Assembly (NCBI GenBank): GCA_021799615.1
Contig: JAJZAC010000021.1
Span: forward strand, 1-33,524
Length of the DNA: 33,524 bases
Reading direction: 5' to 3'
Source: Actinomycetes bacterium
GTDB lineage: Bacteria; Actinomycetota; Acidimicrobiia; Acidimicrobiales; RAAP-2
Shown here: piece by piece, positions 2,843 to 5,744 of the stretch
Layout: each line of letters begins with the position of its first letter
Numbering within the stretch: position 1 is the stretch's first letter
Translations under genes and position numbers: made by a program
The notes under the pieces: model-generated
What the model was told of the DNA's origin: nothing
Databases searched by the model: none
What the model saw: only the letters and a program-made list of their open reading frames with translations

Positions 2843-3412
2843 ATGAGTGTCGACGCGGTGCGAGTCGAGCGAGCGGTGGCCGAGCTGCTGGAGGCAATCG
2901 GTGAAGACGTGGGGCGTGACGGCCTCCTGCGCACCCCGGCCCGGGTCGCCCAGATGTACGCCGAGCTGTTCGCCGGCCTGGACGAGGATCCGGCGTCCCA
3001 TCTCGAGGTGACGTTCGCCGCCGACCACGACGAGATGGTCATGGTGCGGGACATCCCCTTCGCGTCGCTGTGCGAGCACCATCTCATCCCGTTCATGGGT
3101 CGGGCCCACGTCGCCTACATCCCGGCGGACGACGGCCGGATCACCGGGCTGTCCAAGCTGGCCCGGCTCGTCGACGGGTATGCCCGCCGCCTCCAGGTCC
3201 AGGAGCGGATGACCACCCAGATCGCCAACGCCGTCGAGTCGGCCCTGGCGCCGAAGGGTGTCCTCGTCGTGGTGGAGGCCGAGCACCTGTGCATGTCGAT
3301 GCGGGGGGTGAAGAAACCGGGGACCCTCACCGTCACGTCGTCGGTGCGCGGCCTGTTCCGCACGGATTCGGCCACCCGCGCCGAGGCCATGCAGTTCGTG
3401 CACGGCCACTGA
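2843..3412 (+). CDS. folE: GTP cyclohydrolase I
   Basis: FolE converts GTP to 7,8-dihydroneopterin triphosphate, the first step of folate synthesis. Zinc-site segments are intact: [12 protein letters not shown] (Cys and His ligands) and [14 protein letters not shown] (second Cys). [26 protein letters not shown] is the standard core. ATG 2843 is preceded by gaggagagg about nine bases upstream, which excludes the 49-codon extension of the ORF track. The 189-aa length is normal for a type IA enzyme. It leads the folate set (folE, folP, folB, folK), all present except a dihydroneopterin-triphosphate pyrophosphatase and dihydrofolate synthase, which must be elsewhere. Confidence 0.95.
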
Positions 3413-3488: not shown

Positions 3489-4316
3489 ATGGCCACGCCC
3501 CCCGAGCGCCGACGTCCTCTCGTGATGGGCATCCTCAACGTCACTCCGGACTCGTTCTCGGACGGTGGCGAGTGGTTCGAGGCCGACCGCGCCGTCGCCC
3601 GGGGCCACGAGATGGTGGCGCAGGGGGCCGACGTGGTCGACGTCGGCGGCGAGTCGTCCCGCCCCGGGGCGCTCCCGGTCGACGCCGACGAGGAGATCCG
3701 ACGGGTGGTCCCCGTGGTCGAGGCCCTGGCCGGTGTCGTGCGCGTGTCGGTCGACACGGTGAAGGTCGAGGTGGCCGAGGCCGCACTCGCTGCGGGCGCG
3801 ACCCTGGTGAACGACGTGTCGGCGACCCTGTGGCCGGTGGCGGCCGCCCGCGGCGCCGGGTGGGTGGCGATGCACCGCCGGGGAACCCCGGCCGACATGC
3901 AGGACGCCCCCGCGTACGAGGACGTCGTCGCCGAGGTGGGCGCCTTCCTGGCCGCCCGGGCGGCCGACGCCCGCGCCGCCGGGGTCACCGAGATCTGGAT
4001 CGATCCGGGGATCGGGTTCGGTAAGACCGTCGAGCACAACCTGGCCCTGCTCGGGGCGACGGCCGAGCTGGCCGCCAGTGGGTGCCCGGTCCTGGTGGGC
4101 ACGAGCCGCAAGTCCTTCCTCGGTCGTCTGGCCGCCGGACCCGACGGGGCCCCGGCGCCGGTCCACCAGCGCCTGGCCGGCTCCGTGGCCACCGCCACGT
4201 GGGCGATGGCGCAGGGAGCGTCGATGGTGCGGGTCCACGACGTCGCGGAGACGGTCCAGGCCGCCACCCTCGTCGGCGCTCGCCGCCCGAGCGCCCTGCC
4301 GGGATTGGCCCGATGA
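3489..4316 (+). CDS. folP: Dihydropteroate synthase
   Basis: DHPS joins 6-hydroxymethyl-dihydropterin diphosphate to p-aminobenzoate and is the sulfonamide target. Signature segments are all present: VMGILNVTPDSFSDGG at the N-terminus, VDVGGESSRPGA, IWIDPGIGFGKT, LVGTSRKSFLG and MVRVHDVAETVQA. The 275-aa length is normal for a TIM-barrel DHPS. The upstream gap to folE is 76 nt and carries a leaderless-type -10. The 3' end overlaps the next gene as ATGA. Confidence 0.95.
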   Translation: MATPPERRRPLVMGILNVTPDSFSDGGEWFEADRAVARGHEMVAQGADVVDVGGESSRPGALPVDADEEIRRVVPVVEALAGVVRVSVDTVKVEVAEAALAAGATLVNDVSATLWPVAAARGAGWVAMHRRGTPADMQDAPAYEDVVAEVGAFLAARAADARAAGVTEIWIDPGIGFGKTVEHNLALLGATAELAASGCPVLVGTSRKSFLGRLAAGPDGAPAPVHQRLAGSVATATWAMAQGASMVRVHDVAETVQAATLVGARRPSALPGLAR

Positions 4317-4855
4317 GGGGCAAGTGGGCTGCCGGTATCCCGCCCCGGAACTTCACCTGGGTGATCCGGGATCGGTTGGCCATCAGCGAGCGCCCGGGCG
4401 GCTTCGCACCCAACCACCGGCGGGTGCGGCGCAACGAGGAGATCATCTGGCTCCGCGCCCAGGGGTTCAGCCGCGTCGCGTCGCTGCTCCCGTCGCCCCA
4501 CAACCTGGCTGCCTACGAGGAGAAGGGGCTCCCGTTCGTCCACTTCCAGCTGCCGGCCACCGGCGACGTGCGGGCGGTCCTCGAGGAGGTGTTCCACTGG
4601 CTGCATGTCCAGATCACCTCGGGTGAGCGCGTCCTCGTCCACCAGGACGAGCTGGGGGACCGGGTCACCGGGGTGGCCGCCGGTTACCTCCTGTGGTCCG
4701 CACGGCTCCCCAGCGCTCCCCAGGCCACCACGGTCCTCGAGCGGCAGATCGGCCACCCGATGGGTCCGGCGGGCCGGGAGCTGGTGGCGCTGGCTGCGGA
4801 GCTGGCACCGCCCGAGCCGCCCGCAGCTGCCGGATCGGCCCGGGCGCCGGCCTGA
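4313..4855 (+). CDS. Dual-specificity-phosphatase-fold protein lacking the catalytic Cys (pseudophosphatase)
   Basis: The 180-aa protein has the layout of a small dual-specificity or tyrosine phosphatase. WLRAQGFSRVASLLPSPHN resembles the early beta-strand region, LPFVHFQLPATGDV the general-acid loop, and RVLVHQDELGDRVTGVAAGY the P-loop followed by its helix. The usual P-loop is HCxxGxxR; here it reads HQDELGDR, so the nucleophilic Cys is Gln111 while the His (110) and the Arg six residues after Gln111 (117) are kept. The general-acid loop also lacks the expected Asp. The fold may therefore bind phosphate or phosphorylated ligand without hydrolysis. It sits between folP (ATGA overlap) and folB (stop to GTG, 2 nt), which suggests a role tied to folate synthesis. 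Fold assignment is from motif pattern only. Confidence 0.7.
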   Translation: MRGKWAAGIPPRNFTWVIRDRLAISERPGGFAPNHRRVRRNEEIIWLRAQGFSRVASLLPSPHNLAAYEEKGLPFVHFQLPATGDVRAVLEEVFHWLHVQITSGERVLVHQDELGDRVTGVAAGYLLWSARLPSAPQATTVLERQIGHPMGPAGRELVALAAELAPPEPPAAAGSARAPA

Positions 4856-4857
4856 CG

Positions 4858-5247
4858 GTGGGCGCTCCCGACCCGGCGAGGGGCCGGATCGAGGTGCGGG
4901 GCCTGCGGGTCGTCGCCACGCACGGTGTCCTCGCCGAGGAGCAGGCCCGCCCCCAGCCGTTCGAGATCGACGTCGACCTGGACGTCGATCTGGCGTCGGC
5001 GGCGGCGAGCGACGACCTGGCCGAGACGGTCGATTACGGGGCCGTCGTCGACCGTCTCGTGGCTGTCGTGGCGGAGGGCCCGCAGCGCCACCTGCTCGAG
5101 TCCCTGGCCGACGAGCTGTGCCGCGTCGCGCTGGCGGCCGACGATCGCGTCACGGCGGCGACCATCGCTGTGCGGAAGGTCCGACCGCCGGTCGCCGCCG
5201 ACGTCGCCACCGTCGGTGTGCGGATGACCCGGTCGCGTTCCCGGTGA
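4858..5247 (+). CDS. folB: Dihydroneopterin aldolase
   Basis: FolB cleaves 7,8-dihydroneopterin to 6-hydroxymethyl-dihydropterin and glycolaldehyde. The pattern IEVRGLRVVATHGVLAEEQARPQPFEIDVDLDVDL followed by DDLAETVDYGAVVDRL and LLESLADELCRVAL is characteristic of the family. The chosen GTG at 4858 lies two bases after the previous stop and gives 129 aa, a normal length. The ORF-track start at 4693 overlaps the preceding gene and adds low-complexity sequence. The 3' end overlaps folK as GTGA. Confidence 0.92.
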   Translation: MGAPDPARGRIEVRGLRVVATHGVLAEEQARPQPFEIDVDLDVDLASAAASDDLAETVDYGAVVDRLVAVVAEGPQRHLLESLADELCRVALAADDRVTAATIAVRKVRPPVAADVATVGVRMTRSRSR

Positions 5248-5744
5248 CGGTCACGCGGCCGGATTCCCCGACCGTCCGGGCCTTTCTCGGTCTCGGCTCC
5301 AACCTGGGCGACCGGTGGGCGCACCTGCGCCGTGCCGTCGACCACCTGCGGGGGGACGGCGCCACTCCCGTCACCGGGATCTCTCCCGTCTTCGAGACCG
5401 AACCCGTCGGCGGCCCCGCCGATCAGGGTCCCTACCTCAACATGGTGGTCGAGCTGGCCCTCCCCGCCCCGCCCGATCCCTACCGCGTACTGGCCGAGTG
5501 TCGCCGCCTGGAGGCGGCCGCCGGCAGGGTGCGAGCCGTCCGGTGGGGCCCCCGCACGCTCGACGTCGACGTGCTCTGGATCGACGGGGTCCACCTCGAC
5601 GACCCCGAGCTCATCGTTCCCCATCCCCGCCTGTTCGAACGCCGGTTCGTGGTGGCGCCCCTGGCCACCCTGGCCCCGGATCTGGCCGGCCCCGGCGAGG
5701 TGGAGCGCGCTGGTGGCGACGTCGTCGAGGTGGGTACACTGTGA
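5244..5744 (+). CDS. folK: 2-amino-4-hydroxy-6-hydroxymethyldihydropteridine diphosphokinase (HPPK)
   Basis: FolK pyrophosphorylates 6-hydroxymethyl-dihydropterin with ATP to supply FolP. Motifs seen are AFLGLGSNLGDRWAHL, SPVFETEPVGGPADQGPYLN, VRWGPRTLDVDVLW (ATP and metal-binding Asp pair) and IVPHPRLFERRFVVAPLA. GTG 5244 overlaps the folB stop (GTGA) and gives 166 aa. The ORF-track start at 4605 is an upstream read-through. It is the last gene of the folate run; a possible promoter for the next unit lies at its very 3' end. Confidence 0.94.
   Translation: MTVTRPDSPTVRAFLGLGSNLGDRWAHLRRAVDHLRGDGATPVTGISPVFETEPVGGPADQGPYLNMVVELALPAPPDPYRVLAECRRLEAAAGRVRAVRWGPRTLDVDVLWIDGVHLDDPELIVPHPRLFERRFVVAPLATLAPDLAGPGEVERAGGDVVEVGTL
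5735..5740 (+). promoter_or_regulatory. Possible -10 (TACACT) for the DUF2520-pan-nad block
   Basis: TACACT sits at the end of folK, about 67 nt before the DUF2520 GTG. It would give a leader of roughly 60 nt that ends in a ribosome site (gaaagggg). No clear -35. Confidence 0.4.

Follow-up and report, generated by a model that had tools for sequence, protein, structure and literature searches.

A predicted actinobacterial pseudophosphatase between folP and folB with a function apparently independent of de novo folate synthesis

Between folP and folB in an Acidimicrobiales genome lies a small gene, here called gene X, which we read with a probability of roughly 0.6 as an ancient actinobacterial pseudophosphatase, its pocket rebuilt for binding a ligand or partner and its role independent of de novo folate synthesis. 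This reading draws on the predicted fold, on residues conserved across 137 distinct homologs and on patterns of gene loss. The window (the whole stretch of DNA analysed, 33,524 nucleotides of contig JAJZAC010000021.1) has the gene order folE-folP-X-folB-folK, with the following features.

2843..3412, + strand: folE, GTP cyclohydrolase I; open reading frame named by similarity
3489..4316, + strand: folP, dihydropteroate synthase; TIGR01496 297 bits (cut-off 162.6), Pfam Pterin_bind 1.1e-79
4313..4855, + strand: gene X, predicted pseudophosphatase of the DSP/PTP fold; open reading frame of 180 aa, ATG start, TGA stop
4385..4450, + strand: arginine-rich segment SERPGGFAPNHRRVRRNEEIIW of gene X, residues 25-46; conserved, between strand 2 and helix 1
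4640..4663, + strand: degenerate P-loop HQDELGDR of gene X, residues 110-117; family signature H-x-[DE]-x3-[DE]
4858..5247, + strand: folB, dihydroneopterin aldolase; GTG start, TIGR00525 97 bits, PF02152 8.7e-31
5244..5744, + strand: folK, HPPK; TIGR01498 115.8 bits, PF01288 1.7e-33

The coordinates agree with the initial annotation, which had placed gene X (4313-4855) between an overlapping folP and a folB 2 nt away. The ATG of gene X sits on the folP stop in a 4-nt overlap (ATGA, 4313-4316), and the folB GTG (4858) follows 2 nt past the gene X TGA. Owing to this overlap and this short gap, gene X is presumably co-expressed with the folate genes. The folE of the window, used as the FolE query, led to the same place in related loci. 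Upstream of tilS, positions 22-1281 of the window hold an open reading frame with an HEVTH motif, likely a zinc-dependent peptidase.

Fold and distribution of the family

The AlphaFold2 model of the gene X protein (pLDDT 91.6, pTM 0.88) finds human DUSP23/VHZ as its best Foldseek match (PDB 2img, TM 0.75/0.82, E 1.6e-8), followed by the baculovirus RNA 5'-phosphatase and Tk-PTP, with KAP lower. Model and match rule out a different fold and bear out the dual-specificity phosphatase (DSP) fold that the initial annotation had proposed and wished to see compared with such enzymes. Sequence searches of solved structures also lead to DSP-type phosphatases: 25xa is found at E 3.5e-5 with the gene X protein alone, and 25xa_A at E 4.2e-9 when the query is a profile built from 67 homologs. 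In Pfam and NCBIfam no model matched the protein at E<=1. The window protein does not reach the curated cut-off of Pfam DSPc (PF00782) or PF22785, to which 2/67 and 5/67 homologs, respectively, have weak matches (best E about 0.015). By its predicted alpha-beta fold, the protein belongs to the Cys-based PTP/DSP fold superfamily.

Gene X is present in all 45 good genomes among the near relatives and in 255/267 good genomes of the class, nearly always as a single copy; even streamlined genomes of about 1 Mb (family f107) carry it. Named relatives with the gene belong to the Acidimicrobiia/Acidimicrobiales. The dN/dS against its nearest relative is about 0.13, indicating purifying selection, and this value, together with the presence in 255/267 genomes, places its conservation beyond chance. 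Three genomes without gene X (G367, G422, and G473) have their folP at or near a contig edge, and contig ends are probably the reason for the absence. All in all, the family appears to be ancient, class-wide, vertically inherited, and actinobacterial. Our literature search found no description of it: pseudophosphatases are known, but none of the libraries and papers searched describes a bacterial family that spans a class and has its P-loop rebuilt. Some homologs have Lys/Ala/Pro-rich tails resembling histone H1-like repeats (L044, 1453-2889; L019; L136). A fusion partner as a clue to function was discarded, since the long L044 frame is a Lys/Ala-rich tail with no domain.

Lost catalytic residues and a fixed new signature

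The P-loop of gene X, HQDELGDR, reads QX5R where DSPs carry CX5R, and the general-acid Asp of 25xa (in PDFSAP) aligns with A82; three residues farther on lies D85, at a position that is mostly D/E in the homologs. The initial annotation was thus right that the nucleophilic Cys is replaced by Gln and the general-acid Asp is missing. It also judged the site unfit for Cys-based chemistry, and the family as a whole is of the same kind: none of the 137 distinct homologs has the Cys and Arg of CX5R together. Going by this signature, from which both HCX5R and the general acid are absent, gene X would not encode an active Cys-based PTP or DSP, and with its catalytic residues lost in an intact, selected gene, it would count as a pseudophosphatase.

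Two other expectations did not survive the wider alignment. The P-loop Arg, described as kept, is R in 102/137 homologs and lost in about a quarter, with at least 21 changes by parsimony on the tree. Nor is the Gln conserved: the Cys position holds Q in 74 homologs, R in 20, G in 12, H in 10, C in 6, and others in the remainder, and parsimony requires at least 25 changes there, which rules out the Gln as a meaningful conserved substitution. A sequencing error or a pseudogene is likewise ruled out, as the nearest homolog (86% identity) carries Gln, as do 74/137 overall, and dN/dS is about 0.13; close homologs with an intact motif, which the initial annotation named as a sign of such an error, do not occur (CX5R in 0/137).

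What is fixed lies around these drifting positions. H110 is found in 137/137 distinct homologs, and the same 137/137 carry an acid, Asp or Glu, at 112 as well as at 116. Residues 26-46, with the pattern ER-x-GG-x4-HR-x2-RR-x-EE-x2-W, are nearly invariant: scored on clusters of the class below 75% identity, G29, G30, R36, R39, R40, E43, and W46 are invariant and E26, R27, H35, and E42 nearly so. PTEN is one of the related enzymes in which the loop joining strand 2 to helix 1 lies alongside the active site, and for this reason the conserved residues of the P-loop and of the arginine loop may meet in the old pocket.

A second class of the phylum has distant homologs, at 24-34% identity. Their P-loop is mostly HCDRVSEW, with the variants HVDRPGEW, HADRANEW, and HIDRKNGW; they have Cys without Arg, the Cys position drifting among C/V/A/I/G and the Arg position being mostly Trp, and nearly all keep the pattern H-x-[DN]-x3-[ED]. 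As this class also lacks the Cys and Arg pair and shares the acid pattern, CX5R was probably lost before the two classes diverged. No fol linkage was found at the second-class loci. A 4HBT_2 thioesterase gene lies near gene X on the same strand in 23/29 loci (f48: L179-L206, L055-L058), a neighborhood that may hint at function.

These comparisons indicate that an ancestral DUSP23-like phosphatase had lost its general acid, its Cys, and an invariant Arg in the P-loop by the time the family spread through both classes. Judging by the residue positions, the old pocket would then have become a polar site to which the P-loop contributes its His and two acids and to which the arginine-rich loop also belongs, and the protein would most likely bind either a small ligand or a partner with a housekeeping role instead of removing phosphate. 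It is a tentative further idea that H-x-[DE]-x3-[DE] and the arginine loop form a new active or ligand site with an activity undescribed for this fold and serving a core function of the class. The family also offers an example of a P-loop that has given up its catalytic pair and acquired another conserved motif.

Two rival explanations turn on the same residues. In the one, gene X encodes an enzyme with Cys-independent chemistry, where the invariant His and both acids are catalytic, possibly aided by a metal, and the arginine loop holds an anionic substrate. An H110 that never varies and an acid at both 112 and 116, next to a drifting Cys and Arg, are indeed the pattern of a re-purposed site, but the motif is without known precedent: we know of no H-x-[DE]-x3-[DE] in a DSP fold. 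Dephosphorylation of dihydroneopterin triphosphate or monophosphate is one possible reaction, and the gene for the dihydroneopterin triphosphate pyrophosphatase was unassigned in most bacteria in a published comparison (PMC1971073). Against a pterin substrate stand the genomes with gene X and without FolE, FolB, and FolK, as well as fol-bearing genomes without gene X, described below. We consider such an enzyme improbable. In the other, there would be no pocket function at all: the acids and arginines, which are conserved together, could form internal salt bridges without any ligand site, neutralizing each other and stabilizing a platform for protein-protein contacts, for example with the TilS/Hpt/Fol neighborhood or the translation machinery. 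The Lys/Ala/Pro-rich tails of some homologs would suit a platform. However, an invariant His, a near-invariant Tyr, and the strict E-R spacing exceed what salt bridges usually need, and no conserved partner gene was found outside the fol neighborhood, making this explanation very improbable.

Linkage to the folate genes and its limits

The initial annotation asked whether the folP-folB position is conserved, and it is: 111 of the 137 distinct loci read FolP-X-FolB. A further 9 read TilS-X and 5 read FolP-X-FolK; 4 loci (in the second class) are without FolP or FolB, with partial or single variants making up the remainder. The FolP-X-FolK loci without FolB belong to families f31 and f32 (L052, L054, L156, L157, and L159); in these genomes, folB is found at another site, next to a second folK.

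In family f7, gene X lies directly downstream of tilS with no adjoining fol genes. In four of its genomes (G129, G183, G205, and G476), all 98-99% complete and G476 a single contig, none of FolB, FolK, FolE, FolE2, and DHPS is detectable. Three of the four have no match to TIGR01496 (DHPS), and the weak match in G129 lies inside a 1351-aa MetH-like frame. Gene X is nonetheless under purifying selection here (G129 versus G183: dN 0.096, dS 0.933, dN/dS 0.10). The f7 genes form a clade (support 0.999) nested inside the order and are therefore orthologs that have been kept. Six other f7 genomes (G042, G151, G173, G309, G415, and G480) have FolB and FolK matches in one frame of 286-420 aa, resembling a FolB-FolK fusion. 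In all of these but G415, a shortened DHPS-like gene, below the cut-off where tested, adjoins that frame, an arrangement that would fit re-acquisition of the pathway.

The reverse pattern is found in family f26 (eight genomes) and in G655 (family f103), from which gene X is missing. At every locus that was read in them, folP is next to folB and the gap is too small to hold gene X; f26 retains a contiguous folE-folP-folB-folK, and f103 has kept its fol genes. Gene X occupies the same place in other orders of the class, and its absence here is therefore a loss. As losses run both ways, de novo folate synthesis does not require gene X and gene X does not require that synthesis; gene X lacks the co-occurrence with the pathway, in either direction, that would mark a folate biosynthesis protein. 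Indirectly, these patterns show a function that appears independent of the de novo pathway; the job of gene X is probably not making folate, and its link to folate is more positional than functional. Of the ligand-binding or regulatory role in a folate operon put forward in the initial annotation, the retention in the operon in most of the class stands, whereas the tie to folate synthesis finds no support. The loss patterns also disfavor a strict missing dihydroneopterin triphosphate phosphatase.

These observations bear on a third rival, the idea of the initial annotation, in which gene X encodes a regulator or scaffold of the folate pathway. By binding to a phosphorylated pterin, or else to FolP/FolB/FolK, the pseudophosphatase would tune or channel the pathway. 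The 111/137 FolP-X-FolB loci and the tight overlap in the window speak for it, and so does the persistence of gene X where FolP (L053) or FolB (f31/f32) is no longer at its usual position. However, four genomes with gene X have none of the five de novo folate families sought, f26 and f103 manage without it, and the second class has no fol linkage. We therefore hold such a regulator to be unlikely. On the other hand, linkage to folP and folB is very strong across most of the class, which would be hard to explain were folate irrelevant. Genomes without folate synthesis still use imported folate, and a role with imported folate, in folate binding or salvage, is possible.

Comparison with known systems

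The closest structural comparison is with the DUSP23/VHZ-type DSPs (2img, 4erc; bacterial-type 25xa). Fold and order of elements are shared, and the N-terminal segment NFxWVIxxxLAxSxxPGG matches. Gene X differs in lacking the Cys nucleophile, the general-acid Asp, and a fixed P-loop Arg, and it alone has the conserved P-loop acids and the extra arginine-rich stretch before helix 1.

Like gene X, STYX, STYXL2, and PTPRU retain a selected fold without its catalytic residues, and these eukaryotic pseudophosphatases act mostly in animal signaling and cell structure (PMC8622459, PMC10211241, PMC7320164, PMC11147509). Gene X differs from them in being a bacterial core gene, in which position 111 drifts freely and another signature is fixed. 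Widespread, single-copy, and undescribed, the family would carry a topic so far centered on eukaryotes into the core genes of a bacterial class. A published search for class-specific proteins took Acidimicrobium ferrooxidans as its query genome (PMC5962788); if f26 is that lineage, the search would have missed gene X, because f26 is without it.

The FolQ Nudix dihydroneopterin-triphosphate pyrophosphatase (PMC1971073) was likewise a once-unassigned gene in a fol cluster, in Lactococcus. In contrast to FolQ, gene X has an unrelated fold and no catalytic motif; the pathway genes can do without gene X, and gene X can do without them. The family also warns against inferring function from operon position alone.
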